From positions 617,001 through 681,000 of the forward strand of contig NZ_CP085167.1 in NCBI RefSeq assembly GCF_022788715.1: 64,000 bases of DNA. The letters run 5' to 3'. The DNA comes from Sulfitobacter sp. DSM 110093. Its GTDB lineage: Bacteria; Pseudomonadota; Alphaproteobacteria; Rhodobacterales; Rhodobacteraceae. Positions 2,879 to 17,135 of the stretch are shown here, in pieces; position 1 is the stretch's first letter, and each line of letters opens with the position of its first letter. A program made the position numbers and the translations under genes. The notes under the pieces are model-generated. The model made no database searches. It saw nothing but the letters and a program-made list of their open reading frames with translations, and was not told the origin of the DNA.

Positions 2879-3559
2879 TTACTCAGCCGCCTCCAGACAC
2901 AAAGCCGATCGTACAGCACGGATAGCGTTCGTAAGCGGCATCTCATCCGCAGCGCTATCCAGAACTTCATTCAGCGCTCTGCGCGTCTTATTCCCTACGA
3001 AACCGTCTATCGGGCCCGGATCAGCCCCCGCTTCTACAAGCAACATCTGAAGTGTCATGCCTTCGGTTTCGCCCTGAATTTCCTCAGCACTGCAAGGGGA
3101 AGGGCTCTCGGCCTCCGGTTCCGGGTCGGTGTTGTCGATGGCGGGCGCGGCTTGTGGTGGTTCGGGCTCGGGCTCACTGACGGTTAGCACTTCGCCACGC
3201 AGGCAGGAGGTCAGGCGGTTGGTGATTGCGAAAGCCTCTGCTGGCGGGCTGCCATTGGTATTGGTCGCACACTCTTGGGCTTGGTCCGGGCAGGCAAAGG
3301 TGATCTCCCAGCCTGCGCGCTCCCTGCTGGGTTTCAAATAGCCTTCGCCGTTCGCATACATCGCATAGAGAAACCCCCTGATTGTACCTTCCTGCCAAAG
3401 GCCGGGAAACTGGGGGGAAGGGACATCGGCATGGCGGGTGACCACGTCGATGGCGCTGGGAAATGGCGTATCGAAGGTGGACGAGACGCAGGGCGCCGTA
3501 TCGGCCATGGCCGCCGGTGCGCAAAGCGCGAGCAGGAGGTGCAAGGCGGCCCTGTTCAC
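2879..3559 (-). CDS. Exported protein with C-terminal peptidoglycan-binding-like domain
   Basis: About 226 aa from a GTG start whose GTGA overlaps the stop of the upstream DUF3131 gene. A signal peptide (MNRAALHLLLALCAPAAMADT) is followed by a small Cys-containing domain, a Pro/Glu-rich linker (about residues 125-155), and a C-terminal module with MLLVEAGADPGPIDGFVGNK and TRRAL, the pattern of PG_binding_1 domains (xDPGxxDGxxGxxTRxA). The longer frame upstream of the GTG is antisense-like read-through of the preceding gene and lacks a signal peptide. Last gene of the glycan operon; it could anchor or localise the glycan machinery at the cell wall (inference). Confidence 0.75.
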   Translation of the reverse strand: MNRAALHLLLALCAPAAMADTAPCVSSTFDTPFPSAIDVVTRHADVPSPQFPGLWQEGTIRGFLYAMYANGEGYLKPSRERAGWEITFACPDQAQECATNTNGSPPAEAFAITNRLTSCLRGEVLTVSEPEPEPPQAAPAIDNTDPEPEAESPSPCSAEEIQGETEGMTLQMLLVEAGADPGPIDGFVGNKTRRALNEVLDSAADEMPLTNAIRAVRSALCLEAAE

Positions 3560-4908
3560 GGGGCCGCGTGGATCAGAGGGCCGTGAACCCGAAAGGCGAG
3601 GGCGGCGAGAATCGTCGCATTCGTATTCGTGGTGATCGATACGTTGGTCGAACCGTCTTCTTCGTAGATGCCTTCGGGCCAACCCCGTTCCATATCCGCG
3701 AGCGGCGCAATCGCGGCAATCAATTCGCGGGTGTAGTCCGTGCCAAACAGGGCATCCATCGCAAAGGATACCTTGGTGGTGATGGTGCGTTTGCTGTCCA
3801 GACGCTCCCCTTTGAAGGTCATCACCGCCCAAGGGGCGCCGCCGCCCCAGACCGAGGCGTAGGCGAAATAGGGCGCTTCGTCCAAATGCGACTCGCTCAC
3901 GGCGGTAAGTATGCCAGTCTCACGATAGCGGGCCTCCTGGGCCTTATAGATGGCGGTCGCGAACCGGTGCGAGCGGGCATCGAAGCCGAATTCCAAGCCG
4001 TCAAAGATATAGGGCTCGCTGACGGTGAAGGCGGGGGTGACGTTGCGATGCAGCCGCGTATCGACGGGGATGGGCTGGCCCAGCACGTCTTTCACCATCA
4101 AGTGATCTTCGGCACGGTAGGCATTTACCATATCATAACCGAAAAGCATCATGGCTTTCGCGGCATATTGTTCGTAGCCGACCCGCCCTTCCTGATCGCG
4201 GCGCAGGTTGTCATCGGCGATATTGCCTCCAATCAGCCGCCCGTCTTCGACCATTTGGGTAAGGTCCCATTTATCGAGCAAGGCGGTGACATCGGGTGCC
4301 AGTTCGGGATAGCGGTTTGCGACCTGCCCAAGCGCGCCGACCATGCGCGCGATGTCTAGGGCCGACCAACCCAGCCCCCGCTCGACCGGGCGATTGCCGT
4401 AGTCAACCAGTTCGGCAGTTTGGACGTTATAGGCCTTGTTGGGCAGGATATCGTCGAACAAACGCAAGGCGCTGAGGGTTTCTACAGCCAGTGATATGCG
4501 GGCTTCCGCTTCTTCAGGCTCAATCAAACCGAGCAGCTCGGCAGATATGACAGCGATGAAGTAAGACCCGGTTTCCCACATGGTCGTGGAGGGGTATTTA
4601 TCGGCAGAGTTCACCAACCCCGTCGTCTCGTGGGTGTTATTCTCAAAGTAGCGCCAAGCGATCCGGGCATATTCAAGGTCATCTTCGGTGGCCTCGCCAG
4701 TGATCGCTAGCGGTAATGGCTCAACGGTTTCGAAAGCGGCAAGGTGGGATTGATTTTTCACGGCAGAAGGCTCCGTTGGCTCTGTGCTGTCTGTCGCGCG
4801 CTTATCAATGGTATTTTCGAGGGTTACAACGAGCGCCAGCCCAAGGCCCAATGCCATGAGGAATGTAATATGGCTGCGAGCCTTTATCAGATTAGAACGA
4901 AAGCTCAT
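3556..4908 (-). CDS. Membrane-anchored DUF3131 domain protein (glycan operon)
   Basis: 450 aa. The start at 4908 is chosen because its ATG overlaps the glycosyltransferase stop (ATGA); an in-frame ATG 12 codons upstream is possible. One N-terminal membrane helix (about residues 11-31), a short low-complexity spacer, then a long helical domain recognised as DUF3131 by landmarks such as YARIAWRYFENN, GLVNSADKYPSTTMWETGSY, NKAYNVQTAELVDYG, GWSALDIARM and GYEQYAAKAMML. The function of DUF3131 is not established; it occurs beside beta-glucan or exopolysaccharide genes and is suspected to be glycosidase-like. Topology predicts a periplasmic domain held at the inner membrane. A second, soluble DUF3131 gene lies in the same operon. 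Confidence 0.85.
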   Translation of the reverse strand: MSFRSNLIKARSHITFLMALGLGLALVVTLENTIDKRATDSTEPTEPSAVKNQSHLAAFETVEPLPLAITGEATEDDLEYARIAWRYFENNTHETTGLVNSADKYPSTTMWETGSYFIAVISAELLGLIEPEEAEARISLAVETLSALRLFDDILPNKAYNVQTAELVDYGNRPVERGLGWSALDIARMVGALGQVANRYPELAPDVTALLDKWDLTQMVEDGRLIGGNIADDNLRRDQEGRVGYEQYAAKAMMLFGYDMVNAYRAEDHLMVKDVLGQPIPVDTRLHRNVTPAFTVSEPYIFDGLEFGFDARSHRFATAIYKAQEARYRETGILTAVSESHLDEAPYFAYASVWGGGAPWAVMTFKGERLDSKRTITTKVSFAMDALFGTDYTRELIAAIAPLADMERGWPEGIYEEDGSTNVSITTNTNATILAALAFRVHGPLIHAAP

Positions 4909-6731
4909 GCGTTCGGCTCCTCTTGGGTTTGTTCGGGTTGCCATAGGGCTGCGCGGATCATTCCGGCCATGGCCAAGCAGTTATTAAGACCCCAAAGAAT
5001 ATTCGCCACAACACCACCAGCAGAATGCCCAGTGCCGCCATAGATCAAGGCGCCGATGCCCCAAAGGGCACCAATGGCGGTAAAGATGATCACGGCCATT
5101 TGCGGGCGAACAAGCTCAAGAAAATTTCCTGTTTGTCGGGTTTTTGGGGTCACCTTGAAAGAGATTTTCTCTCCCTTGGCGACAGCCAGTAGCGCTTTCA
5201 TGCCCAGCGGAAAAAAGGCGAGGTAGCTGCTTTTGGCGGCATAACCCGCAATCCCCCAGGTGCCGACCATGATTGCGAGTTCTAGCGTGACGAGGAAGGG
5301 GATCAGGCGGAAAAAGAACTCGTCCGAGTAGGCAGAAACGGGCGAAGCACCGGTAAAGAGATACACGACTGGGGCAAAGAGAAAGACAATGTTCCACAAC
5401 GGCGCCAGATAGGAATAGAATGTGGTGCCATACATAAGCCGCTGGCCGATCGACAGGCCACGGCGAAACAGCGGATTGTCGTTCTTGAGAATATCCAAGC
5501 TGCCGCCCGCATATTTAAAGCGTTGCACGGTCCATGTCAGCAGGTCCTGGGGCGACAGCATCTTGCTTTCGACCATCGGATGCTGCTTTGACTTCCAGCC
5601 GCGTTCGCTATCCGAATGCAGGACAATCGACGTGTAGATGTCTTCGGAGACGTGGAACCGATAGGGCGTCAGAACCTCTGTTGCGGCGGATTCCGTGCGG
5701 ATGGCTGCCATCAAATCCTGGGCAATCTCGCGCTCCTTGCTGGAGACGGTGATATTCTCTTCGACTGCGAAAGACCGCTGTTCGACCTTGTCGCCGAAAC
5801 TGCGCAAGGCGGCCTCCATCACCGCCTCGCGGCGATGGATAGAACCGGCCCCGCAACAGAAGGCGGCATTCACCCAATTCCGACGCCGCAGGATGATGTC
5901 GTAAAACATCTTGGGGTCGTTGACGAAGGGATCCGCACCGTAAACCACAGGCCCAATCGCCCGCTCGACCGCGCGGCCGATCTTGTCGCCAAACCGACCG
6001 AAGCGGCGCTGCAGTTTGTCGGTCAGATGCTCTCCGGCGGGCAGGTCGTAGAACCACTGTGGCGTTTGAACCCAGGCCATTTTCTTGTCCCGGAAATAGC
6101 CCATCGTATGTTCGAGGAACGTCGGGAAAGGGCGGGTGTCCGCGTCGCAGATCACCATGAAATCGCCCGAGGTCTGTTCCATCGCGTTGCGGAGATTGCC
6201 AGCTTTGAAACCTTCGTTCGTGCTGCGGGTGATGTAGTTTGCCCCCTCCGCTTCGGTGACGACGCGCATTTCGGGGCGGCGGCCATCGTCAAGAATATGG
6301 ATGCGTATGTCGATCGGGTGGGGGTAGGTCATTTGCTTTGCATCAAGGATCCCGAGCCGCACCAGCTCGGGGTCTTCGTCATAGGTGGCAAACATCACAT
6401 CGACCGAGATTGGCCGGTCCCCTTCGGGATGGCCATCGACGACATCCGACAGAACTGCCGGGGGGCTTTCGATCTTGAGCGGATCGTCTTTCCAAAGATT
6501 GAAAACGAACAGCAACATGCCGAAATATGCACAGGTTTCGGCCAGCACCAAGGGCAGCGCAAACCACATGGCGTCGGGGTTCAGCGAATGGGCCCACCGC
6601 CACCAAATGTACCAGCCCCCGACAACCAGGGCGATTGTCGCAAGGAACTGCCAGAGCATTTCACGCAGTGGCGAATAGGGTAGCGGCGGCTCCGGCTGGC
6701 GGTCTTCAAACTTGAGGAAATAATCGTCCAT
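4905..6731 (-). CDS. Membrane family 2 glycosyltransferase (cellulose synthase / MdoH-like)
   Basis: 608 aa; start at 6731, one base after the acyltransferase stop; a longer frame exists but runs into that gene. Two N-terminal helices (about 25-45 and 55-80), a cytosolic GT-A domain, and C-terminal helices (about 440-595). Catalytic landmarks: D148-D149 (ILDDGRRPEM), DAD at 196-198, a TED-like SED at 362-364, and QRFKY at 403-407 in place of the usual QxxRW. This matches processive GT2 enzymes that polymerise and export beta-glucans. No PilZ domain is visible, so direct c-di-GMP activation as in BcsA is not indicated. Product unknown; neighbours suggest an acylated periplasmic or surface glucan. 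Confidence 0.9.
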   Translation of the reverse strand: MDDYFLKFEDRQPEPPLPYSPLREMLWQFLATIALVVGGWYIWWRWAHSLNPDAMWFALPLVLAETCAYFGMLLFVFNLWKDDPLKIESPPAVLSDVVDGHPEGDRPISVDVMFATYDEDPELVRLGILDAKQMTYPHPIDIRIHILDDGRRPEMRVVTEAEGANYITRSTNEGFKAGNLRNAMEQTSGDFMVICDADTRPFPTFLEHTMGYFRDKKMAWVQTPQWFYDLPAGEHLTDKLQRRFGRFGDKIGRAVERAIGPVVYGADPFVNDPKMFYDIILRRRNWVNAAFCCGAGSIHRREAVMEAALRSFGDKVEQRSFAVEENITVSSKEREIAQDLMAAIRTESAATEVLTPYRFHVSEDIYTSIVLHSDSERGWKSKQHPMVESKMLSPQDLLTWTVQRFKYAGGSLDILKNDNPLFRRGLSIGQRLMYGTTFYSYLAPLWNIVFLFAPVVYLFTGASPVSAYSDEFFFRLIPFLVTLELAIMVGTWGIAGYAAKSSYLAFFPLGMKALLAVAKGEKISFKVTPKTRQTGNFLELVRPQMAVIIFTAIGALWGIGALIYGGTGHSAGGVVANILWGLNNCLAMAGMIRAALWQPEQTQEEPNA

Positions 6732-6732
6732 T

Positions 6733-7884
6733 CTATGCACCAGCCAATGGCTTGGCCTTGCGCCGTTCCCAAGGCAGCGGGCCAAGGCCGATCGTCCATG
6801 CCACCATGGCCCCTTTGGAAAGCCCATAGGCCACCGCGAAAGACAGCGGCAGCGCCACCGTGTAGCGGGACAGGACAAGCAGCCAAGGTTGCATCATCTG
6901 GGACAGACCCGTTTTGAACACGAAGATATCAAAGAGGTCGATGACAAATGGATGCACAAGATACACCCCAAAACTGAACCTCGCGAAGAACGACCATTGC
7001 TTTGACCACGGCAGGAACTGCCCGCCAAGAAAGACAAAAAATACAAAGACAGGCATCAAGAAATGCCCGTAAAAGTCCCAGCCGCTTCTGATGCCCCAAC
7101 CGCCGGTTTCATAGGCGATGGCAAAAAAGGGCAGGGTCGCGATATAGGCCAAGCCCGCGAAATAGAACGCAGCGCGCCGGATCAGACGAGATTCGCCTCT
7201 GGGAATGCCGTCCTTCCACAGGCCATAGATCGCGAAGGCGGCCAACCCGTATCCGACATAGCCGAATATTTTCAGCGCACGAATGATGTAGTCGCGGAAA
7301 AAGGGATCAATCCCGGTGCCCCAGATAAACGCCTGCGCGCTGTTCATGACGCCTATGGTCACCAGCACCGCGAAGCCGAACATGGGATAACGCATTGCGA
7401 CCCGCATCACCGGATAGAACAAGAACAGGGCAAAGAGCGTAGGCAAAAAGTGCATGTGGTACTGGGACTTGCCCAAGATGAGATAGCCCGCCCAGTTCTT
7501 CAGATCGGTGATCTGATCCCAGATATAGGGCGTGTAGCCAAACGCCTCTGCCTTCGCCAAACGGAAGAACACATAGAAGAATGTCCAAAAGACGAAAGGC
7601 ACCAGCAGCCGTTTGGCTTGCTGCCCGATTGCCGTCCCGTAGCCCGGCATCTTTCTATCGACCCGCATTGCCATCAGGAAAAGCGAAAACATAAAGAACA
7701 TCTCGGAGCCCGAGAATTCGCCGATTGATCGCAGGAACACCGGAATAAGGCGCGCTGCGGGTTCTGCATCGGCAAATGGCTGCCCCGAAAAATCCGTGGA
7801 GGAGTGGATCAGCACAACGCCAATCGCCGCAAAAACCCGGTTTGCGTCAAACCACAACAGTCTTGTCTTGCTGCTTTGGCTCAT
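6733..7884 (-). CDS. Acyltransferase family 3 membrane protein (OpgC/Oac-like)
   Basis: 383 aa; ATG at 7884 overlaps the stop of the upstream DUF3131 gene (ATGA). About ten membrane helices. The first carries FDANRVFAAIGVVLIHSS, the Arg/His signature of acyltransferase family 3; other landmarks are SEMFFMFSLFLMAMR and FGVYLVHPFVID. Members move acyl groups such as succinyl or acetyl across the inner membrane onto glycans (OpgC on periplasmic glucans, OafA on O-antigen). One base separates its stop from the glycosyltransferase start, so it probably decorates that product. Acyl group not predictable. Confidence 0.88.
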   Translation of the reverse strand: MSQSSKTRLLWFDANRVFAAIGVVLIHSSTDFSGQPFADAEPAARLIPVFLRSIGEFSGSEMFFMFSLFLMAMRVDRKMPGYGTAIGQQAKRLLVPFVFWTFFYVFFRLAKAEAFGYTPYIWDQITDLKNWAGYLILGKSQYHMHFLPTLFALFLFYPVMRVAMRYPMFGFAVLVTIGVMNSAQAFIWGTGIDPFFRDYIIRALKIFGYVGYGLAAFAIYGLWKDGIPRGESRLIRRAAFYFAGLAYIATLPFFAIAYETGGWGIRSGWDFYGHFLMPVFVFFVFLGGQFLPWSKQWSFFARFSFGVYLVHPFVIDLFDIFVFKTGLSQMMQPWLLVLSRYTVALPLSFAVAYGLSKGAMVAWTIGLGPLPWERRKAKPLAGA

Positions 7885-9635
7885 GGGTTGGCAGCGGGGA
7901 TTGGGCATGATTTCGGCAGAACTTCACGCACTTTTGGCGGCAGCATCTTATGCTCGGTCGGTTGGCATTCGGTCGCTCCGATTTCGCCGCCTGTCAGGAC
8001 GGGGCGGCAATAGATGAATTCCTCTACAGGGATCACAGGATCGACGCGGTTGGGGTTCGCGCAGGCACAGCAGGGCACCTCTTTGATCATCTTGTTCGGG
8101 TGGCATTTGTTGTCTCGCAGGTCAGTCCCGTTATTCGCCATATCCCAGGTCTGCGTGTTGTTGTTCGCCTTCTTCAGGATCGGTCCTTGCACCTTGTACA
8201 AAAGAGCCGCGAGGATGATGCCGTTGTTGTTCGACGACTGAAGCGGGATATAGCCGTTGCCGTTTTCGTATAGCCCCTCGTAGAACCCAAGTTCGGGCTC
8301 CGAAAGATCGGCAACGCTTTCAAATAGAAGGTCGGTATATTCAGTTTCCCACAGTGCCCACATGCCAATTGCGGCTTTCGCGGCAATGGCGGCGCGGTCG
8401 GGTTGGTACTCCCCCGTAGGATCAAGCGTGTTCCAAGGGTAACCATCGGCGAAGATCGTGTCATACACGAAGTAGGGCTTGCCGTTGACCTGATGCTCCG
8501 AACGCGCGGTCACGATGCCCGTTTGCTCGAACCGGCGCTGTTGCACCAGATAGATGCGGTTGGCGAATTCCGCGCGCCAGCCGTGGCTTGCCGTTTCGCC
8601 GTCACCATCTGTGTCGGAAGGGATGTCCCACCCCAGTTCCAGACCGTCCAGAATATAGCCCTCGGTCAGGACGTAGTTCTGGTTCTTGAAAATACGGGGA
8701 TCGCGCCCGTCGAAGGGCACTTTGACATCATAGATGGTCGTATAGGACAGCGGCTCGGGTGACAGGGCGCGATCGACATCGAAACCCCAAAGCGCAAACC
8801 CTTTGGCAGCGTATTCTTCATAGCCCAAACGCCCCTCTTGGACATAACGGGTGGAACCATCACCGCGTTTGAATGACCCGAACATCCGGCCATCCTCGTT
8901 GATAAGATTGCAAAAATTCCACCGCATCGGAACGTTGTCGACACTGTTTGCCAGATGGGGGTGGCGCTCTTTCAAGATGCGCAGCCAGACCAACATACGG
9001 CCGATATCAAGCGCGGACATGCCCACTTCGCCCGCCTCATTCGCGTAGTTCACCTTCTCCCCGGTCTTGGCGTTGTAAACCTTGTTGGGGGCTTCCCCTT
9101 GGTACAGGTCAAGATTGCGCAGCGTATTGAGCAGTTTGGTTGCGCGGGTGTCAAAATCCCGTTTGTCGATGACGCAAAGCTCATACGCGGAGACCAAGGC
9201 GCTGATATAGGAGGCAGTGTCCCACAAGGTGGTGGACGGATAGGCCCCTACGGCGTTGACCAAACCCGTGTCAGGCTGGAAGCGCTTTTCGAAATATGAC
9301 CAAGCTGTCTGCGCCATTGCGTATTCGCGGTCGGTTAGCTGTCCATTGCGGCCAAAATGCGTTTCATCATCAAATCTTGCGCCGCGATTGCATTCTTTCC
9401 GCATATTCCCATCGCCATTGAAATCGATAATCAAGGGCGCGGAAGAGCGGATCGTCATACTGTCGTAGGGTGTGCCTTCGACGATTATATTGCCGATCGT
9501 AACCTTTTCGGCCCCTGCTTCTGCCTTGGGCGTGGCTTCTGGCGTGTCTTGGGCATGTACCAGCGGCGCAGTGGCCAAGGCGACAAAAGCTGCTGCAATG
9601 CAATTAACGAATTTAAATGACATGGGGTGCCTCAT
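7881..9635 (-). CDS. Secreted DUF3131 domain protein with Cys-rich tail
   Basis: 584 aa from ATG 9635, which overlaps the kinase stop (ATGA) and has GAAGGAG upstream. Cleavable signal peptide (to about residue 28, LVHAQD), an N-terminal extension of roughly 90 residues, then a DUF3131 domain with the same landmarks as the downstream paralogue (LVNAVGAYPSTTLWDTASY, NKVYNAKTG, MSALDIGRMLVWL, GYEEYAAKGFALWGFD). After the domain, about 90 residues hold eight cysteines (for example CHP, PCCACANP, YCRP, TECQP, SCPIP), suggesting disulfides in the periplasm. The paralogue lacks this tail. First glycan gene after the partner-switching trio. Confidence 0.82.
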   Translation of the reverse strand: MRHPMSFKFVNCIAAAFVALATAPLVHAQDTPEATPKAEAGAEKVTIGNIIVEGTPYDSMTIRSSAPLIIDFNGDGNMRKECNRGARFDDETHFGRNGQLTDREYAMAQTAWSYFEKRFQPDTGLVNAVGAYPSTTLWDTASYISALVSAYELCVIDKRDFDTRATKLLNTLRNLDLYQGEAPNKVYNAKTGEKVNYANEAGEVGMSALDIGRMLVWLRILKERHPHLANSVDNVPMRWNFCNLINEDGRMFGSFKRGDGSTRYVQEGRLGYEEYAAKGFALWGFDVDRALSPEPLSYTTIYDVKVPFDGRDPRIFKNQNYVLTEGYILDGLELGWDIPSDTDGDGETASHGWRAEFANRIYLVQQRRFEQTGIVTARSEHQVNGKPYFVYDTIFADGYPWNTLDPTGEYQPDRAAIAAKAAIGMWALWETEYTDLLFESVADLSEPELGFYEGLYENGNGYIPLQSSNNNGIILAALLYKVQGPILKKANNNTQTWDMANNGTDLRDNKCHPNKMIKEVPCCACANPNRVDPVIPVEEFIYCRPVLTGGEIGATECQPTEHKMLPPKVREVLPKSCPIPAANP

Positions 9636-10087
9636 TCGCACGCTCCTTCTGCGGGGGGCATGGTGGTATGATTGGGTTCAATATCCCAGAACTTTAACAG
9701 TAGGCTGTAGCCGAAATCAGATTGGCCGTATTCGACCTCATTCGCGAATTCCATGATCAGGCCAAGCCCGCGGCCGCCTTCGGCCATTTCGTCAACCTGC
9801 GCCAAGTCGGTGGCCTTTTCGCGCAGATCGAAAGGCTCTGCGCCAGCAGGGTCAAATATCTCTATCAGAATGGCAGCGGGCTTGACCCTTAGGTTAATAT
9901 TGATCTCAGCTGCGGATGCTTTTGGTCGGGCGTGGGCCACGAGGTTGTTCAGAGCCTCAGAGATGCAAAGCTCGAATTTGAACCGTGTCGGATCGGACAA
10001 TGACGGCTCGACCGCAGCGCTCAGGCGCTGGACCATCGGGTCCACCGCCTCTAGGGCGTTGGACATCGTGTAGCTTTGGCTGTTCAC
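9632..10087 (-). CDS. Anti-sigma-type serine kinase (RsbW/SpoIIAB-like HATPase)
   Basis: 151 aa single-domain GHKL ATPase. N-box ELCISEALNNLVAHA (about residues 39-53), Asp/Gly box FDPAGAEPF, and glycine box GGRGLGLI followed by a short C-terminal strand. In this family the kinase binds a target (a sigma factor or another protein) and phosphorylates its STAS antagonist on serine. Its ATG overlaps the STAS stop (ATGA), and its own stop overlaps the start of the first glycan gene. No sigma factor is encoded in the window, so its target is unknown. Confidence 0.85.
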   Translation of the reverse strand: MNSQSYTMSNALEAVDPMVQRLSAAVEPSLSDPTRFKFELCISEALNNLVAHARPKASAAEININLRVKPAAILIEIFDPAGAEPFDLREKATDLAQVDEMAEGGRGLGLIMEFANEVEYGQSDFGYSLLLKFWDIEPNHTTMPPAEGACE

Positions 10088-10428
10088 TGGCGCTCTCGCA
10101 GCGACTGGAGCGCTGCATCGACGTTTCGGTGAATGGGCAGCACCCGATCCATGCGGCAGATACGGAACATCTGCTCCACATCGCTGTTAAGATCCGCGAT
10201 CAGTAGGTCGCCGCGGTGCCCGATCTTTTTTAAGACACCGACCAGCGCGCCCAAACCGGAAGAATCCAGAAAAGATACCTGCGAAAAATCGACGATGATC
10301 TGGCTGTTGCCCTGATCGATCAGTTCGACGACCTCGTTCTTGAACCCGGTCGCATTCTGCGCTGTCAGGCGCTCTACGCCGGGGCGTACGACAGTGATGG
10401 AGTCGTCATGTTGGGTCGTATGGATCAT
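10084..10428 (-). CDS. STAS-domain anti-sigma-factor antagonist (RsbV/SpoIIAA-like)
   Basis: 114 aa, one STAS domain. The phosphorylation loop VSFLDSSGLGALVG (about residues 51-64, Ser56/Ser57) is intact. In partner switching, the unphosphorylated STAS protein captures the kinase and frees the kinase's target; a PP2C phosphatase resets it. It starts two bases after the phosphatase stop and overlaps the kinase start by 4 bp, so all three parts are encoded in stoichiometric order. Confidence 0.9.
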   Translation of the reverse strand: MIHTTQHDDSITVVRPGVERLTAQNATGFKNEVVELIDQGNSQIIVDFSQVSFLDSSGLGALVGVLKKIGHRGDLLIADLNSDVEQMFRICRMDRVLPIHRNVDAALQSLRERQ

Positions 10429-10430
10429 TC

Positions 10431-11606
10431 TCAGTTCCTCTTAAGGGCGACGACGGTCAGGTCATCTTCCAGTGTGTTCCCGCCGCGCCAATCGGTCAAT
10501 GATTGCACGATCGTCTCTGGCATTTGCTTTGCGCCGACATATGGCATTGTCCCAACCATTCGCTTGAGACGATTAAGCCCGAAGGGTGCGTTCTTCTCGT
10601 TCTCGGCCTCGGTGACCGCATCAGAGCACACCACCAATGTGCTACCTTGAGCGAGGTGAATTGAATTGTTTTCATAGGTCATGCTTGGCAGCAGCGCGAC
10701 GGGGAACCCCCCATCCCCCACCATGTCGACAGCGCCTTCATCATCGACGTAATAGGGCGAAGGGTAGGCAGCCTGGCAATAGGTCAAATCACCGCTTGCT
10801 GTATCAATAACGCCACAGAACATTGTGAAATATTCGTCGTTGTCAGAGCTGTAGAACCGGTCGTTAAGATTGGCGACCAAGGCTGCTGGGTCAAAGGGCT
10901 GCCCGTCTTGCAGAGCGAATGTTCGGAAAAACTCCGGCGTGATCAGATAACCCAGTGCGACGGACAACAGCGAGGCATGAACGCCATGCCCCGACACATC
11001 GATCATGTAAAACCCCAGCGTATCCTCGTTCAAAGGAAAGCAGCCAAACATATCGCCTGAAACGAAAGACGAGGGGACAAAGGCCGAAGAAATATCAAAG
11101 CCAGACATCTCTTCCTTAAAGTCGGGTAAAAGCTGTCGCTGGGCTGCTGCTGCGGCGCGCAGATCTTCTTGAATGCGGTCGTTGGTTTCTTTCAAAATCC
11201 GTGTTCGTTCCGCAAGTTCATCCGCGTGTTGGATCAACCGTGTCGCCGCACGAATACGGGCGTTCAGCATGACGGGGCTGCGCGTTTTGTTGAGAAAGTC
11301 GTCAACCCCGGCGTCAAGCGCCTCGGTGCGCAGCTCGTCATTCTCACTACCGGTGATCATGATGATGTAAACGTAATGGTCCAAATCAAGCGCGCGTACC
11401 GCTTTGGTCAGCTGTATCCCGTCCATATTGGGCATTTGATAGTCGCTGATAACGATTTGAATCCTTGATCTGCGCAGTTCTTGTATCGCTGCTTGACCAT
11501 CATCAACGGGGATCGCCTCGTACCCCAGACTTTCTATCAGTTTGGATAAGTATAGCCGTTGAACCAGATTATCTTCTGCGACGATGATCTTAAGCCGTTC
11601 TACCAT
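10431..11606 (-). CDS. Response regulator with PP2C/SpoIIE phosphatase output (RsbU-like)
   Basis: 391 aa; start at 11606 chosen for the GGAGGAAC site nearby (a longer in-frame ATG lies 15 codons upstream). N-terminal receiver with acidic pair E11-D12, phosphoacceptor Asp55 (VISDYQMPNMDG) and Lys107; a coiled linker (about 125-165); C-terminal PP2C domain with GDMFGCFPL, YMIDVSGHGVHASLLS, DAVTEAENE and EDDLTVVALKRN. Phosphorylation of the receiver should control dephosphorylation of the STAS partner. First gene of the operon, divergent from the H-NOX/HnoK pair, so HnoK is the obvious candidate donor (inference). Confidence 0.9.
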   Translation of the reverse strand: MVERLKIIVAEDNLVQRLYLSKLIESLGYEAIPVDDGQAAIQELRRSRIQIVISDYQMPNMDGIQLTKAVRALDLDHYVYIIMITGSENDELRTEALDAGVDDFLNKTRSPVMLNARIRAATRLIQHADELAERTRILKETNDRIQEDLRAAAAAQRQLLPDFKEEMSGFDISSAFVPSSFVSGDMFGCFPLNEDTLGFYMIDVSGHGVHASLLSVALGYLITPEFFRTFALQDGQPFDPAALVANLNDRFYSSDNDEYFTMFCGVIDTASGDLTYCQAAYPSPYYVDDEGAVDMVGDGGFPVALLPSMTYENNSIHLAQGSTLVVCSDAVTEAENEKNAPFGLNRLKRMVGTMPYVGAKQMPETIVQSLTDWRGGNTLEDDLTVVALKRN

Positions 11607-11780
11607 CGCGTGTCTGTTCCTCCAGCTTTTGGTTCTCGCACATTGATTCATATAGATAGCAGAACTTTGTCATTTAGTTGGCAGGAATCGCAGTAAATTG
11701 TGAAAAAAGCCTTATTTCGCTAACCTTTTAAGAGGTTTGGGAGGTAAAGAGATAGAATGCTTGCGATAATGCGCCGGAGT

Positions 11781-11822
11781 CCACAGACTGTGGGGGCCAC
11801 CCGCTGAGGTGGTAGGGGTGGC
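11781..11822. promoter_or_regulatory. Inverted repeats in the divergent phosphatase / H-NOX promoter region
   Basis: The 294-bp gap 11607-11900 separates the two divergent operons. It contains a 13-bp palindrome CCACAGACTGTGG at 11781-11793, followed by GCCACCC (11796-11802) and its complement GGGTGGC (11816-11822). These could be an operator serving both operons or an RNA hairpin. No regulator can be assigned. The flanks of the gap are AT-rich. Confidence 0.4.
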
Positions 11823-11900
11823 GGTTTGAGGAATGGTGGTGACACCGAAAACAATCGGCTGTGAGTGGTCGTAGCCAAGAGTGAAAGGGAGCGAGACGCG

Positions 11901-12443
11901 ATGAAGGGTACGATTTTCGTAGAACTGGTCAACATGGCCGAGGAGGCTTTCGGCGAGGATGTTGTCGATGAGGTTTTGGAAAGCGCCGACCTTGAGAATG
12001 GCGGCGCGTTTACGACCGTAGGAAATTACCCCTGCTCAGAGCTTATTAAGATCGTCGTCGCATTTAGTGAGCATTCGGGCATCAGCGCAGAGAAGCTTCA
12101 GCGCATGTTCGGTCACTGGATGATGAACCATTTTGTCGAAAATTACGCAGAGTTTTTTGAGGGTAAGAACGACAGTTTTTCACTGCTCGAAGCGGTGGAT
12201 GGCGAAATTCATGTTGAGGTTAAAAAACTATACCCAGATGCAGAGCTTCCCGAGTTTGCCACAGACCGTCTTAGCGATGATCGACTAAAGCTCACTTATT
12301 CTTCGCCACGACCATTGGTGGAATTTTGCCACGGTATGGTTGAGGCTTGCCTAGAGCGATACGATCAAAAAGCGCAGGTTGATCGTTGCCCTGTGCCGCA
12401 CCAAGAGAATGCGACAGATTTTGATATTCGTTTGGAAAAGTGA
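11901..12443 (+). CDS. hnoX: H-NOX haem nitric oxide sensor
   Basis: 180 aa, the normal H-NOX length. Start MKGTIFVELVNMAEEAFG is typical of the family and has AAAGGGAG upstream; an in-frame extension of 12 codons is less likely. Haem-ligand landmarks are present: proximal histidine His104 in GEIHVEVKKLYPDA and the YxSxR haem-propionate clamp at Y133-S135-R137 (LTYSSPRPLVEF). H-NOX proteins bind NO at ferrous haem and then change the activity of a partner kinase or cyclic-di-GMP enzyme. The partner here is the hybrid kinase that follows after 31 bp. Confidence 0.95.
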   Translation: MKGTIFVELVNMAEEAFGEDVVDEVLESADLENGGAFTTVGNYPCSELIKIVVAFSEHSGISAEKLQRMFGHWMMNHFVENYAEFFEGKNDSFSLLEAVDGEIHVEVKKLYPDAELPEFATDRLSDDRLKLTYSSPRPLVEFCHGMVEACLERYDQKAQVDRCPVPHQENATDFDIRLEK

Positions 12444-12474
12444 ATAAAGCGATCATTGAAGGTCTGATGTTAAA

Positions 12475-14211
12475 ATGCACGATGAAGCTTTACCCGCAAA
12501 AACTGAAGTATCCCGGCGTCGCTATCAGCGCGAACAAGCCGCCCGTGCCGAAGCGGAGAAATTGCTAGAGCAGAAAAGTCGTGAGCTTTATTTGGCAAAT
12601 GAAAGGCTTAGCGCCTATTCATCCGAATTGGAAAAAGCGGTACGGGTTCGCACCGAGGAGTTGGAGGAGGCGCTGAAACAGGCCGAGCTTGCGGGCCGGG
12701 CCAAGAGCCGTTTTCTGGCCACCATGAGCCATGAAATACGCACCCCCCTCGGCGGTATGTTGGGAATGATCGACCTGTTGGAGATGGACGAAACGGACCC
12801 TGACAAGAAAGAACTCCTTAAATTCGCGGCCACGGCGGGCACCAGTCTGGGGCGGATCGTGAATGACGTTCTTGATTTTTCGAAGATGGAAGCGGGTGTT
12901 TTCATACTAGAGAAAGAGAACGTCGATATTCGCGCATTGATTGAAAGTGTCTGCGCGTTGGCCGGTAGTAACGAAGCGACACGGCATCGCAACCTGAACA
13001 TCGAAGTGTCCCGCGACGTGCCACATATTTTTCTGGGCGATGCAACGCGTATCCGGCAAGTCATTTCAAACCTTGTGACCAATGCTTTACGCTATTCTAC
13101 CGACGGGCCGATCCATATCCGTGCTGCCGCTTCGCAACATCCGGTTGGCTGTCTGCTGAGGGTTGAGGTCGAAGATGTTGGCATTGGCATTTCCGAGGAT
13201 GGCAAAAAGGACTTGTTCAAGGACTTCTCGCAAGTTTCCAATTCCTTGACTGCCGCTGCGCAGGGTACGGGGCTTGGGCTTGCGATCTGCAAACGCATTA
13301 TCGAAAGTTCCGGCGGCGTGGTGGGTGTCGCAAGCGAGGTCGGCGTCGGCTCGACCTTCTGGTTTGAGGTTCCCGTCGAAACCGGTGGGCTTGCCAGTGC
13401 CGACGCTGAAGGGGGGAAACGGGATCAGCGCAACGGCAATATTCTAGATGGAAAGCGCGTGCTGATTGCCGAAGATAACATCATCAACCAGAAACTGCTT
13501 TTGACCTATGCCGATCGCCTAAACCTTGTTGCCGACCTCGCCGAGAATGGCCGTATCGCGGTTGAGATGTTCGACCCCAAGACATACGATCTGGTGCTGA
13601 TGGACGTTGCCATGCCAGAAATGGACGGGCTTGAGGCGACTCAACGCATTCGCCAAAAATGGGGTGCATTCACCTATCCGCCGATCATCGCCCTGACCGC
13701 CCATTTGATGGATGCCATCGAGGAAGAAGCGAGTGTCGTCGGGATTGATACGATCCTTTCCAAGCCGATCCCCTTTGCGGAACTCAAATTTGCGCTTGAG
13801 GTTGCTTTGTGCGGTCAAGCACCCAGTGCAGACGAAGCGGCGGGAGCGGCGCAAGACGCTGTTTCGGCAACCGAAGGGCAGGGCACCTCGATCCTTGATA
13901 GAATGTGCGATGCCACCCTAGGCGATATTCGTGAGCTTTTCTCAGAAGATAAATTGATCGAACTTGCGCATAAGTATGTGGATGATTGTTCCAAACGGTG
14001 CGAGCGTTTGGAAGCTCAATTCGACGCGGGCGATGCGGCTGCAGTGCGGGCCGAGGCGCATTCGATTAAAGGCTCTTCTTTGATGTTGGGTTTTAACAAT
14101 ATCGGCGAGTGGGCAGGCCTTCTTGAACAGACTCCTTTGGGCGATGGGGAGCCGAGGAGTTGGTTGAACCAAATCCGAAGCGAGTTGGCGGTTCTTCGGA
14201 CGTTCACATGA
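12475..14211 (+). CDS. hnoK: H-NOX-associated hybrid histidine kinase (HnoK) with receiver and HPt
   Basis: 578 aa, soluble, no membrane helix. N-terminal coiled coil (about residues 12-75), HisKA with His86 (FLATMSHEIRTPLGG), HATPase with N-box SNLVTNALRYS and G-box GTGLGLAICKRI, receiver with Asp377 (LVLMDVAMPEMDG), and a C-terminal HPt with His529 (AEAHSIKGSSLMLG). Known HnoK proteins are inhibited by NO-bound H-NOX and pass phosphate on through an HPt. The HPt here lets it act as a complete relay; the neighbouring receiver-phosphatase is the nearest possible acceptor. Confidence 0.93.
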   Translation: MHDEALPAKTEVSRRRYQREQAARAEAEKLLEQKSRELYLANERLSAYSSELEKAVRVRTEELEEALKQAELAGRAKSRFLATMSHEIRTPLGGMLGMIDLLEMDETDPDKKELLKFAATAGTSLGRIVNDVLDFSKMEAGVFILEKENVDIRALIESVCALAGSNEATRHRNLNIEVSRDVPHIFLGDATRIRQVISNLVTNALRYSTDGPIHIRAAASQHPVGCLLRVEVEDVGIGISEDGKKDLFKDFSQVSNSLTAAAQGTGLGLAICKRIIESSGGVVGVASEVGVGSTFWFEVPVETGGLASADAEGGKRDQRNGNILDGKRVLIAEDNIINQKLLLTYADRLNLVADLAENGRIAVEMFDPKTYDLVLMDVAMPEMDGLEATQRIRQKWGAFTYPPIIALTAHLMDAIEEEASVVGIDTILSKPIPFAELKFALEVALCGQAPSADEAAGAAQDAVSATEGQGTSILDRMCDATLGDIRELFSEDKLIELAHKYVDDCSKRCERLEAQFDAGDAAAVRAEAHSIKGSSLMLGFNNIGEWAGLLEQTPLGDGEPRSWLNQIRSELAVLRTFT

Positions 14212-14237: not shown

Positions 14238-15911
14238 TTAAAACTTGAATTTATAGGCAACCGATACCGTTCCGCCCCAAACGCCCTCGCCGGGGGTGCT
14301 GCTGGGATTCCAAAAGAAACGGTTGTTTCCGTAATTGCTGTAGGTGACGCTCCAATCATCGTTGATCTTGTAGCTTGCCGCATAGGAAAAGTCGGGGTCC
14401 CAGACGTCTTGTTTGCCGGGCAGATAGGCATAGGCCGTCCCGCTGATGCGTAAACGTTCGGTGAGGGCGTAGCTACAGAACAGGTTGAAAGAGCTATACT
14501 CAAGGTCAAGCAGATTGACGCTGGAAGAGCAGCCGATGGTCTTGTCATTCGGTAGTTCGATCTTTGGCAAACGATAGCTGGCCCGCAGCGCGCCGGATAT
14601 GAGGGAATCAAAAAACGACCCGTTGGCGCTGTCGAAACGGGCGGAGTAGTTTGAGTAGCTTAACGTGATCTTATCCGTGGCCTTGTAAGAAAGCGCATAG
14701 GTGAATTCGGCGTCAAAGGGCGATTTTTCGTTGTTATCGCCATAGCCAATCACGGAGGCTCGTAGCGTTAATTTTTCGGACAACTGCGCACCGCAGTTCA
14801 GGCTGGCCCGCGGTTTGCCAAAGCGTTTCGCACCCGTACTGTGGTGCTTGTAGCGCAGTGTCACGCTCCCGGTGATCGAGCATGCAAGCTTGATACGCTG
14901 AAAGAAGGTTTCCTTCTCAGGGGGCGTGGGTGCCGAAACCGGAATCTTCGCGACGTCAATGGCCTTTACAGTAGACGCCGTTCTTTTTGCTGGTGAAGCT
15001 GCTGTTTTGACCTGCTGTTTTGCGGTTTGAACCGCCTCGATGTTACTCAGTTTTTCAAGCTGCGGCTCGCTGCAATCCACGTCTGGATCTTCGATTGTGC
15101 AGGGCAAATGCGCTGGCTGTTCAACTGGCGCGGGCAGAATCTCTTCTACCTGCTGTGCCGCATCGACTGGCGTGACCTCTGTTTCAAACGCTGTAATCTC
15201 GGAACTGTCCGGCTCTTGCGGGGCTGCGGGTGTAGCCTCTGTGTCTGTGCTCAGGTCAGAGGGTTTGTTTTCGGGATCTGCAGGCTCGCTACCCTCTGCC
15301 CAATCGGGTACCGCATCATCTATCTGCGATGGGAGCGGCGGTGCAGGCTCTACAACCGGTGGCGTTCCTGTTCCGGCGAGGATCCATTCAGATAGATACC
15401 GTGCCAGCACTTTTCCCGAAGGAGCCGAGGGCATGTCGGGTTCCGGCGCGCCGACAGCGGGGATTAACGTGGTTTCGCCATCCTCACCATAGACGGTGCA
15501 AGCGACCCCCTTCTCGCAAGACAGACGGAACAGGGGACTGCGCAATTCGTTAGCCTGCATCACCGTGCCGGTCCCATCGGGGAATAGAACATAGCGCAGG
15601 CCATTGATTTCTCCGCGCTGGTGGCGCGACAGATGCAAGGCGCTTGGCAGGTCTTGAATGACCTCTTGTGCCGAAGGAATGGCCGGTTTTGCCGTGTTGA
15701 TCACGGTTGCATCTCCAGCAGGGATATCTGCCAATTCAGCGAGGCCGTCGTCGGTCACCGGCTGCGCCTGAACGGTCGTCGCCAGAGGCAAGTTGACCGA
15801 TGCCAGCAGGAGACACTGGATCAAAGCACCGGGGAAAGACGCCGGCCAAAACAGGCTGCAACGGCGCGGCGCGGCACCCTTCGTCACTGTTGTGGACTGA
15901 TCGATCGGCAT
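14238..15911 (-). CDS. Outer-membrane beta-barrel protein with long Pro/Glu linker
   Basis: 557 aa. N-terminal hydrophobic export signal ending near TTVQAQ, a first domain of about 130 residues, an acidic Pro/Ala-rich linker (about 190-330), then a barrel-like C-terminus ending in an aromatic residue (VSVAYKFKF), as outer-membrane proteins do. The barrel contains two similar segments (TYALSYKATDKITLSYSNY and SYAASYKINDDWSVTYSNYG), suggesting an internal duplication. It converges on hnoK and is divergent from the esterase. It may be the outer-membrane part of the island's glycan system; this is inference from location. No family recognised. Confidence 0.7.
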   Translation of the reverse strand: MPIDQSTTVTKGAAPRRCSLFWPASFPGALIQCLLLASVNLPLATTVQAQPVTDDGLAELADIPAGDATVINTAKPAIPSAQEVIQDLPSALHLSRHQRGEINGLRYVLFPDGTGTVMQANELRSPLFRLSCEKGVACTVYGEDGETTLIPAVGAPEPDMPSAPSGKVLARYLSEWILAGTGTPPVVEPAPPLPSQIDDAVPDWAEGSEPADPENKPSDLSTDTEATPAAPQEPDSSEITAFETEVTPVDAAQQVEEILPAPVEQPAHLPCTIEDPDVDCSEPQLEKLSNIEAVQTAKQQVKTAASPAKRTASTVKAIDVAKIPVSAPTPPEKETFFQRIKLACSITGSVTLRYKHHSTGAKRFGKPRASLNCGAQLSEKLTLRASVIGYGDNNEKSPFDAEFTYALSYKATDKITLSYSNYSARFDSANGSFFDSLISGALRASYRLPKIELPNDKTIGCSSSVNLLDLEYSSFNLFCSYALTERLRISGTAYAYLPGKQDVWDPDFSYAASYKINDDWSVTYSNYGNNRFFWNPSSTPGEGVWGGTVSVAYKFKF

Positions 15912-16211: not shown

Positions 16212-17135
16212 ATGAATATACGAAATGCCTTTGGCTTGTTCTGCCAGACTATCATTTTCGCCTTGATGGGGGCGGTCGCGACCGCCGAGGTGAGGTTTGA
16301 AAGCGCGGTTGGCAGTGATACATTCGGGCGGCCTGTCAGCTATGCGCTTTATCTGCCCCCCGGATACGACACTGATAACCGTAGCTATCCGGTGCTTTAT
16401 CTTTTGCACGGCGGTGGCAGCGGCCAACCAAGCGATTGGTTCACGCTGGCGGGATTGGATCAACTGCTGGATCAGTTGATTTCAGACGGAACCATTCGCC
16501 CCTTCATCGCCGTGGCCCCTGACGGGCGCCGGGACAAAGCGAACAAGATTGCCACCTATTTCCTTGATGACCACGATGGCGCGCTGCGCTGGGAAACGAT
16601 GTTCTTCGAGGATTTCATCCCGGCGATAGAGACACGACACCGCGCTATCGGAAATGGAGAGGCCCGCGCGGTTCTCGGTATTTCCATGGGGGCCGTGGCG
16701 GCAACGCTGTATAACCTCAAAGAACCTACTGAATTCGCAGGTAGCGCGGCTTTGAGCATCGCATTCCGCACCGAGAGTCAGGTGCTCGCCCTTTCGCCCG
16801 AGGCTTACGAGAGCCGCTACGCAGGGCTTTTGGGGCCGGATTTAGAAGGCGAAGAGCGTTTCAATTCACATTGGCAGGCCATATCACCATCGACTGTCGT
16901 GTCGGCAGCGGACAAAAGTAACTTTGCCCGTATTCCACGCCTCTATTTCGATATGGGCGCTGATGATCCCTTTTTTCAGGGCGCGGCTGAGCTTCATATC
17001 ACGTTGCGAGATGCTGGGATAAAGCACAGATTTCTCGTGTCCGAAGGCAATCACGATTGGAACTTCTGGCGGCGATCTTTGGCGGAGGCGATCTTGCATA
17101 TCGACGCTGTCTTTACGCGTGGATATGGGGAGTAG
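16212..17135 (+). CDS. Secreted esterase of the esterase D / CE1-like alpha/beta-hydrolase family
   Basis: 307 aa with an N-terminal signal peptide (cleavage about residue 25, VATAEV). Oxyanion-hole HGGG at 66-69, nucleophile Ser158 in GISMG, candidate acid Asp251/252 (DMGADDPFF) and His281 (EGNHDWNFW) form a complete triad. The family cleaves acyl esters, including acetyl or feruloyl groups on polysaccharides. Inside an island that also encodes a glycan acyltransferase, it could remove acyl groups from the same glycan (inference). Divergent from the outer-membrane protein; ends the island cargo. Confidence 0.85.
   Translation: MNIRNAFGLFCQTIIFALMGAVATAEVRFESAVGSDTFGRPVSYALYLPPGYDTDNRSYPVLYLLHGGGSGQPSDWFTLAGLDQLLDQLISDGTIRPFIAVAPDGRRDKANKIATYFLDDHDGALRWETMFFEDFIPAIETRHRAIGNGEARAVLGISMGAVAATLYNLKEPTEFAGSAALSIAFRTESQVLALSPEAYESRYAGLLGPDLEGEERFNSHWQAISPSTVVSAADKSNFARIPRLYFDMGADDPFFQGAAELHITLRDAGIKHRFLVSEGNHDWNFWRRSLAEAILHIDAVFTRGYGE

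Follow-up and report, generated by a model that had tools for sequence, protein, structure and literature searches.

Whether a single locus can lead from nitric oxide (NO) to the making of a glycan is the question raised by a gene set in Sulfitobacter sp. DSM 110093, in which an NO sensor (H-NOX) and its hybrid kinase (HnoK) are divergently encoded from a partner switch whose genes run on into glycan genes. Such gene sets occur in some marine bacteria. NO widely serves as a signal for biofilms to form or to disperse. We analysed the window, a 64,000-nucleotide stretch (C1:617001-681000) of the 4.34-Mb genome (label G000), and compared its locus with relatives elsewhere; an earlier note on the same DNA had proposed that NO acts through this switch on glycan output. 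Genome comparisons showed that H-NOX/HnoK is evolutionarily linked to a REC-PP2C/STAS/RsbW-type switch that abuts or overlaps a glucan operon. We consider it probable that the set forms one signalling-to-surface module, in which NO and H-NOX restrain HnoK and thereby alter phosphoflow to the phosphatase (Asp55) and, through it, STAS phosphorylation and glucan output. The coupling of the sensor unit to the switch/glycan unit is well supported; its sign, target and product we infer. If true, a single locus would lead from NO, via serine phosphorylation, to a glucan of the surface or periplasm.

The partner switch runs into the glycan genes

Each named gene of the locus is an open frame that clearly matches Pfam. 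Those on the minus strand, listed in the direction of transcription, encode a REC-PP2C (SpoIIE-type) phosphatase (10431..11606; PF00072 and PF07228), a STAS protein of the anti-sigma-antagonist type (10084..10428; PF01740), an RsbW-type HATPase, or serine kinase, with a GTG start (9632..10087; HATPase_c_2, PF13581), a DUF3131 protein (7881..9635; PF11329), a membrane acyltransferase (Acyl_transf_3; 6733..7884, start ATG 7884; PF01757), a cellulose-synthase-like GT2 (4905..6731; Glycos_transf_2, PF00535), a second, membrane-anchored DUF3131 protein (3556..4908) and a small protein with a GTG start (2879..3559). On the plus strand, H-NOX (11901..12443) and then HnoK (12475..14211) face the phosphatase gene across a divergent region (11607..11900). 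These frames and matches bear out the domain calls, the gene set and the two divergent units of the earlier note.

Reading each junction from the start codon closest to the preceding stop, we found 4-nt overlaps of the GTGA/ATGA type at STAS/HATPase, HATPase/DUF3131, DUF3131/acyltransferase, GT2/DUF3131 and DUF3131/small gene, and gaps of 1-2 nt at PP2C/STAS and acyltransferase/GT2. Specifically, the HATPase GTG overlaps the STAS stop by 4 nt, the DUF3131 start ATG 9635 overlaps the HATPase stop, and the GTG of the small gene overlaps the stop of the preceding DUF3131 gene. The earlier description of switch genes running straight into glycan genes therefore holds, and with such an overlap or short gap possible at every minus-strand junction, translational coupling of the switch to the glycan genes is probable. 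No promoter consensus was found in 11607..11900. As promoter and terminator scans did no better than shuffles (5 versus 7.1 expected; 17 versus 15.6), and the divergent region is unconserved across 8 aligned sequences, we make no claim of a shared promoter.

The residues needed for a partner switch are kept. Asp55 of the receiver, numbered from the phosphatase start ATG 11606 (the longest frame begins 15 codons earlier), and the PP2C metal-ligand aspartates are invariant in 69/69 aligned sequences; Ser56 of the Ser56/Ser57 pair in STAS is kept in 78/78, and Glu44 and Asn48 (N-box) of the HATPase in 66/66, the window being included each time. HATPase counts, here and below, include only short open reading frames scoring under 62 bits (residue alignment) or 100 bits (frame spacing), because the profile was contaminated by overlapping reading frames.

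The phosphatase belongs to a class scoring at least 360 bits, versus at most 219 for the common REC-PP2C class found across the family. No second REC-PP2C was seen in the window's own genome, where the sole other SpoIIE-type match is a HATPase-SpoIIE protein (C1:1382757; L213) within a small cluster of frames resembling STAS and HATPase. Two further arrangements of the phosphatase were noticed. A lone HPt gene (L087:963-1388, genome G055) is divergent from a common-type REC-PP2C gene, a possible HPt-to-REC-PP2C pair, and at L101 (G155, C340) tandem REC-PP2C-like frames, the second one shorter, precede STAS.

The NO sensor and a hybrid kinase ending in HPt

H-NOX matches PF07700 at 137 bits against a curated cut-off of 25.5, and the nearest solved chain is 6ocv (E 1.6e-38). 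The haem motif of H-NOX proteins consists of a proximal His and YxSxR; here His104 occupies the proximal ligand position and YSSPR lies at 133-137. Of the two possible starts, ATG 11901 is more likely than GTG 11865. The HnoK gene follows directly, after a 31-bp gap, and encodes HisKA(His86)-HATPase-REC(Asp377)-HPt(His529). HisKA begins at residue 76, with no further N-terminal Pfam domain and no sensor domain belonging to the kinase, which is what one would expect of a kinase under H-NOX control.

An HPt end was present in all 14 scanned HnoKs of the window's clade, with His529 invariant among them, versus one of six scanned H-NOX kinases from family genomes that have H-NOX without this locus (see below). 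This distribution, HPt in 14/14 clade members and mostly absent from other H-NOX kinases, is in line with coupling of the kinase to the receiver of the phosphatase. The positions given earlier for Asp55 and His529 were confirmed.

Recurrence of the set within Rhodobacteraceae

We then turned to 198 family genomes. H-NOX of some kind occurred in 138 of them and the strong class (best match at least 101 bits) in 18. For each of the other 17 genes of the strong class, window proteins were mapped onto as much as 20 kb of surrounding DNA, less being available on the shorter contigs of G155, G139 and G056; for the REC-PP2C class, up to nine candidates were scored per genome. The same set recurs in three other genera of the family, in two arrangements, more than expected by chance: the layout is divergent in G000, G007 and G097, and in G127 H-NOX/HnoK lies downstream in the same direction. 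G155 holds both halves on short contigs. Consistently, the GT2 class (>1000 bits) was counted in 6 genomes, the REC-PP2C class (>=360 bits) in 7 and the HnoK subclass (>=49% identity to the window's) in 6, all of which fall within the 7 REC-PP2C genomes (hypergeometric p 9e-11, a descriptive value, as the genomes are not independent and the three cut-offs were fixed after the scores were seen). The claim that the two units belong together thus gained support from 6/6 HnoK-subclass genomes and from an association that survives a change of order.

G015 carries the set with no H-NOX match at all. The place of H-NOX/HnoK is taken there by a REC-GerE regulator, a nucleotidyl transferase, a small protein resembling molybdopterin oxidoreductases and a PAS hybrid kinase with HPt at its end. 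The two genes that border the window locus on its left also have relatives close to the G015 locus, on its opposite side.

Other arrangements were seen around these genes. An FMN-dependent dehydrogenase is the divergent upstream neighbour of five of six scanned H-NOX genes from the family genomes that lack the locus. At L038, L043, L044, L045 and L047 (G053, G038, G025, G099 and G002; five genera), H-NOX/HnoK without the glycan locus adjoins an FMN-dependent (lactate-type) dehydrogenase, and the kinases of L038, L043, L045 and L047 are short (453-461 aa) with no HPt match. At L035 (G134), the H-NOX gene stands between a gene for a FIST-domain protein and a 1359-aa frame weakly matching HnoK. 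More remote GT2-DUF3131 pairs (52-55% identity) at L102 (G120) and L103 (G057) are oriented divergently from a REC-PP2C gene of the common type, a hint as to the origin of the link. In the reduced locus L100 (G123), phosphatase, HATPase and shortened DUF3131 frames are left, next to a PAS hybrid kinase and a LuxR-type autoinducer receptor.

A constant output with exchangeable sensors

A scan with one genome per species returned 354 GT2 relatives, of which the best 80, leaning to close relatives, were taken as loci. They are not independent (L113, L114 and L116 are three strains of one species), so that P values are descriptive, and three overlap the family sample (L121 = G015, L130 = G155, L157 = G097). 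STAS was found in 77/80, the other three loci being cut just upstream by a contig end, and REC-PP2C in 69/80, with the class delimited here at 390 bits, where the scores show a gap; L174, cut by its contig end (312 bits), was kept in spacing counts and statistics and left out of the residue alignment. Among the 11 remaining loci, L126, L175 and L176 are cut by a contig end, and in L170, L177, L180 and L183 a membrane sensor (CHASE3 or HAMP) replaces the REC of the PP2C; no REC-PP2C was seen in L150, L156, L159 and L178 (the last of them cut).

H-NOX is present in 20 of the 80 loci, 10 from Rhodobacterales and 10 from Gammaproteobacteria (9 labelled Thiotrichaceae), and in 17 of these 20 it stands head-to-head with REC-PP2C, with 118-615 bp between the longest frames. 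To call HnoK the defining input, as the earlier note did, was thus an overstatement. Another hybrid kinase, divergent or inside the operon, lies in the stretch of 29 of the 40 alphaproteobacterial loci without H-NOX. These kinases were found by motif and profile, with L155 and L186 added by hand after Pfam scans, and an HPt match was obtained in 11/12 scanned PAS hybrid kinases (4 below the Pfam cut-off; one kinase from G123, outside the 80). A hybrid kinase was in the stretch (~10 kb) in 49/69 REC-PP2C loci versus 0/4 loci with a membrane-sensor phosphatase (p 0.0098, the four being two pairs of relatives). In a tree of 86 GT2 rows, the sensor is known for 53, and 8 changes of sensor type are required among these, most PAS labels resting on likeness to scanned kinases.

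Whole-genome searches for H-NOX covered 49 locus-bearing genomes, 10 of which carry a divergent PAS kinase. No H-NOX was found in six of these ten (L120, L121, L124, L128, L129 and L140); L133, L150 and L156 gave a weak HNOB match only (20.6-41.1 bits), and L127 a strong one. Kinases that replace H-NOX/HnoK in H-NOX-less loci argue for coupling with exchangeable sensors, not for absence of coupling. Moreover, a constant switch with a variable feeder of the phosphatase receiver is what would be expected if adjacent kinases phosphorylate that receiver.

Three plasmids were examined, from 15 listed among 497 records with a GT2 match. Pseudooceanicola algae p202 carries, in one block, barrel, HnoK, H-NOX, phosphatase, STAS, ATPase, DUF3131, acyltransferase, GT2, DUF3131 and small gene. 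On a Pantoea plasmid the switch is accompanied by OpgC, GT2, three DUF3131 genes and a PAS hybrid kinase with HPt, and on a Sphingobium plasmid by GT2, GH16, a CHASE3 kinase, a lone REC and a lone HPt. Since REC-PP2C and STAS are near-constant while H-NOX/HnoK, PAS kinases and membrane-sensor phosphatases alternate, our comparison suggests a constant output module, switch plus glucan synthase, with an exchangeable sensor. It thereby defines a widespread partner-switch/glucan-synthase module.

Whether gammaproteobacteria recruited H-NOX independently was examined with an H-NOX tree of 36 rows; L032, whose branch is far longer, was excluded beforehand, as was L042, which duplicates L157. Grouping of the H-NOX proteins of the Rhodobacterales and gammaproteobacterial loci was rejected (approximately unbiased test, p 0.0007), and was no longer rejected when three long-branched rows were removed (p 0.16). 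The head-to-head layout common to both groups rather favours one origin or transfer.

Several findings weigh against one dedicated module and bear on a rival explanation, in which H-NOX/HnoK signals elsewhere (to a cyclic dimeric GMP (c-di-GMP) enzyme or a REC-GerE regulator), another HPt feeds REC-PP2C, and the adjacency is hitch-hiking. Twelve of the 18 strong-H-NOX family genomes lack this switch class and GT2 (a more remote GT2 is present in G057 and G086); H-NOX/HnoK without the locus means that HnoK-type kinases have other targets. In G123, H-NOX/HnoK lies ~1 Mb from REC-PP2C, and GT2 and acyltransferase are missing; L115, L127 and L154 have H-NOX/HnoK of the window type outside the fetched stretch, with no kinase beside REC-PP2C in the stretch of L115; and in G007 a REC-GerE regulator gene adjoins HnoK on its far side. 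L150 and L156 hold a PAS kinase and STAS, with no REC-PP2C seen. No hybrid kinase lies in the stretch of 20/69 REC-PP2C loci, those of Ferrimonas without exception and those of Vibrionaceae with one exception among them; the kinase of such loci, if any, must be encoded elsewhere. Finally, HPt was found in 0/8 scanned gamma-type HnoKs (of 10); lacking it, they cannot use an identical relay, and a separate HPt or direct transfer would be needed in gammaproteobacteria. Against signalling elsewhere stand the adjacency repeated despite changed order, the joint presence on a plasmid, the replacement of H-NOX/HnoK by other hybrid kinases and the occurrence of HPt mainly in the linked clade, and we judge that rival improbable. 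Co-occurrence, association kept through changed order, the plasmid set and sensor replacement together support the coupling of H-NOX/HnoK to the switch. The two units recur together in G007, G097, G127, p202 and named Rhodobacterales, and culturable carriers include Celeribacter halophilus and Pacificibacter marinus. At the family level the halves are separate in most genomes, which the earlier note had named as an outcome that would refute its proposal.

The glycan machinery and the target of STAS

GT2 scores 222.5 bits against the NCBIfam CelA equivalog, below the cut-off of 699.1, and gave no PilZ match at E 0.001; its six PDB matches are all cellulose synthase subunits. Processive GT2 synthases (CESA-like) carry the motifs D, DxD, ED and Q(R/Q)xRW. 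In GT2 of the locus, D173/D174, D221/D223 and E388/D389 are invariant among 6 sequences, and the final motif is QRxKY, not QxxRW. The two DUF3131 proteins score 412 and, for 7881..9635, 396 bits in the Pfam scan, the latter having an N terminus judged by eye to be signal-peptide-like. Over the catalytic domain, the DUF3131 profile and structure model match the fold of cyclic beta-1,2-glucan cyclisation and beta-1,2-glucanase domains, the membrane-anchored protein (3556..4908) being assigned on the fold of the cyclisation domain of cyclic beta-1,2-glucan synthase; a single DUF3131 sequence gave nothing significant against solved structures, so only profile and model matched. On these models, DUF3131 (PF11329), a family of unknown function, gains a likely role in beta-glucan processing. 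We infer the beta-1,2 linkage from the DUF3131 fold alone.

Transcriptional partner switching is known for Rsb and proposed for Rba. The main rival on the target of STAS and HATPase is accordingly a sigma-factor route: the HATPase would act as anti-sigma factor on a sigma factor whose gene lies elsewhere, STAS would relieve it, and the glycan genes would be merely co-transcribed or one target. STAS does score above the cut-off of the anti-sigma-antagonist superfamily model, and the HATPase matches the RsbW and SpoIIAB models, below their cut-offs. RbaVW, from the same bacterial order, affects gene expression, though without a sigma partner found (PMC3999984), and HsbR binds RpoS (PMC6482189). 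At the locus itself, no sigma factor domain was found in the 12 window genes scanned, neighbouring loci not being scanned. The constant neighbour is instead GT2, with STAS nearby as counted above and the HATPase frame ending 8-86 bp before GT2 in 10 alpha- and gammaproteobacterial loci, and Anabaena all4160 is described as a STAS-glycosyltransferase protein (PMC8256260). Because of the missing sigma factor, the GT2 without PilZ, the frame spacing and the all4160 precedent, we favour the glucan machine as STAS target and regard the sigma-factor route as rather doubtful.

A bolder extension, which we put forward as a tentative possibility, is a c-di-GMP-independent gate in which the STAS/serine-kinase switch directly binds and controls GT2/DUF3131 in place of PilZ. 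Any hybrid kinase would plug into REC, and some Rhodobacterales and Thiotrichaceae would use H-NOX/HnoK for this. The glucan made would be acylated, of beta-1,2 type and possibly cyclic, and the cassette would be mobile.

A proposed path from NO to glucan and its sign

In the mechanism that we propose for the module, HnoK would autophosphorylate and pass phosphate from His86 through Asp377 and His529 to Asp55 of the phosphatase. The phosphorylated phosphatase would dephosphorylate STAS at Ser56, the HATPase would rephosphorylate it, and unphosphorylated STAS would permit glucan synthesis by GT2; the simplest ways would be that STAS binds the synthase complex or draws the HATPase away from it. 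NO on H-NOX would lower HnoK activity, leaving a less active phosphatase, more phosphorylated STAS and less glucan. In the periplasm, the DUF3131 proteins would process the chain by cyclisation or transglycosylation of beta-1,2-glucan type; the acyltransferase would decorate the glucan, and the barrel protein described below may export it. Several inputs to this output module would be interchangeable, H-NOX/HnoK among them.

The sign of the NO effect is taken from analogues alone, and they disagree, which counts against the direction just given. In Vibrio fischeri, HnoX inhibits HahK and SypE sets SypA phosphorylation (PMC12369376); unphosphorylated SypA promotes biofilm, and NO/HnoX inhibits it (PMC12369376, PMC8256260). 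In Pseudomonas aeruginosa, biofilm is lowered by the phosphorylated phosphatase: HsbA promotes biofilm when phosphorylated, and its dephosphorylation shuts biofilm down (PMC6482189). By that analogy the STAS-to-glucan step may be of opposite sign. H-NOX/NO would then still lower phosphatase phosphorylation, but phosphorylated STAS would promote glucan, which NO would raise as a protective coat; given the V. fischeri precedent, we think this opposite sense unlikely.

Outer neighbours

The unit does not end within 2879..14211, as had been supposed. It extends to an outer-membrane beta-barrel protein on the minus strand (14238..15911), assigned from a structure model and fold matches, with 12 strands at its C end and an overall predicted local distance difference test (pLDDT) of 65. 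Its gene is beside HnoK in 8/10 Rhodobacterales H-NOX loci as well as on p202, and the protein is a probable export or surface partner. Perhaps included is an esterase on the plus strand (16212..17135; PF00756), the weakest member of the set and a possible companion of the acyltransferase; relatives occur in 15/80 loci, none of them with adjacent H-NOX, and none was seen on p202. The small protein at the other end has a weak peptidoglycan-binding-like match, below the Pfam cut-off, and a relative in 44/80 loci.

Comparison with known systems

The syp locus of V. fischeri is a many-gene cluster, unlike the GT2/DUF3131 glucan operon. The HnoX-HahK-SypF-SypE/SypA-syp chain resembles our locus in that an NO sensor controls a hybrid kinase (PMC12369376, PMC8256260) and a phosphorelay onto the response regulator SypE sets phosphorylation of the STAS protein SypA, with polysaccharide as output (PMC12369376). 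It differs in that hnoX-hahK and syp are separate and joined through SypF (PMC12369376), and in that SypE unites serine kinase and phosphatase, whereas the window protein is REC-PP2C only and the kinase a separate gene.

The NosP-NahK-HptB-HsbR-HsbA chain of P. aeruginosa likewise has an NO sensor, kinase, HPt, PP2C receiver and STAS protein and acts on biofilm (PMC11784011, PMC6482189). NosP lowers NahK, which feeds HptB (PMC11784011); HptB transfers to the HsbR receiver, and phosphorylated HsbR acts as a phosphatase (PMC6482189). Unlike at our locus, NosP is not an H-NOX, the HPt stands alone, HsbR also holds a kinase domain, and the outputs are RpoS, FlgM and a diguanylate cyclase (PMC11784011, PMC6482189).

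A further comparison is with Rhodobacter capsulatus, also of the Rhodobacterales, whose RbaY/RbaV/RbaW comprise a REC-PP2C, a STAS protein with S56/S57 and a separate HATPase, with overlapping STAS and HATPase genes (PMC3999984). There, however, rbaY is unlinked to rbaVW, the system is tied to gene transfer agent, viability and colony form, and the portions of the report at hand name no H-NOX or glycan genes (PMC3999984). The REC-PP2C class of the window differs in score from the common class of the family (>=360 versus <=219 bits). In Bacillus cereus, the hybrid kinase RsbK phosphorylates and activates RsbY, which acts on RsbV/RsbW, as proposed here for HnoK, but there is no NO sensor and the endpoint is sigma B (PMC9912610, PMC3999984).

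In the Rhodobacterales member Dinoroseobacter shibae, the H-NOX of HNOX-Dgc1 inhibits a diguanylate cyclase, unlike at our locus (PMC7232146). The window genome has a pair of this type at C1:1065676, a second H-NOX followed by a GGDEF protein; H-NOX proteins of that type form a weaker-scoring class, with 83 bits versus 137 at the locus. The cyclic beta-1,2-glucan synthase Cgs/NdvB is a giant fused synthase, unlike the stand-alone proteins beside a cellulose-synthase-like GT2 found here.

In the parts of the open-licence literature searched, H-NOX routes end in c-di-GMP, quorum sensing or the syp cluster, and a one-locus coupling of H-NOX, partner switch and glucan synthase was not found. The earlier view that no such system had been described therefore stands for the exact one-locus set, and not for the chain as such, given the analogous chains of V. 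fischeri and P. aeruginosa. The parts and their logic are already known; what appears new, judging from the open-licence papers searched, is the one-locus H-NOX/partner-switch/glucan-synthase coupling, its spread and its exchangeable sensors.

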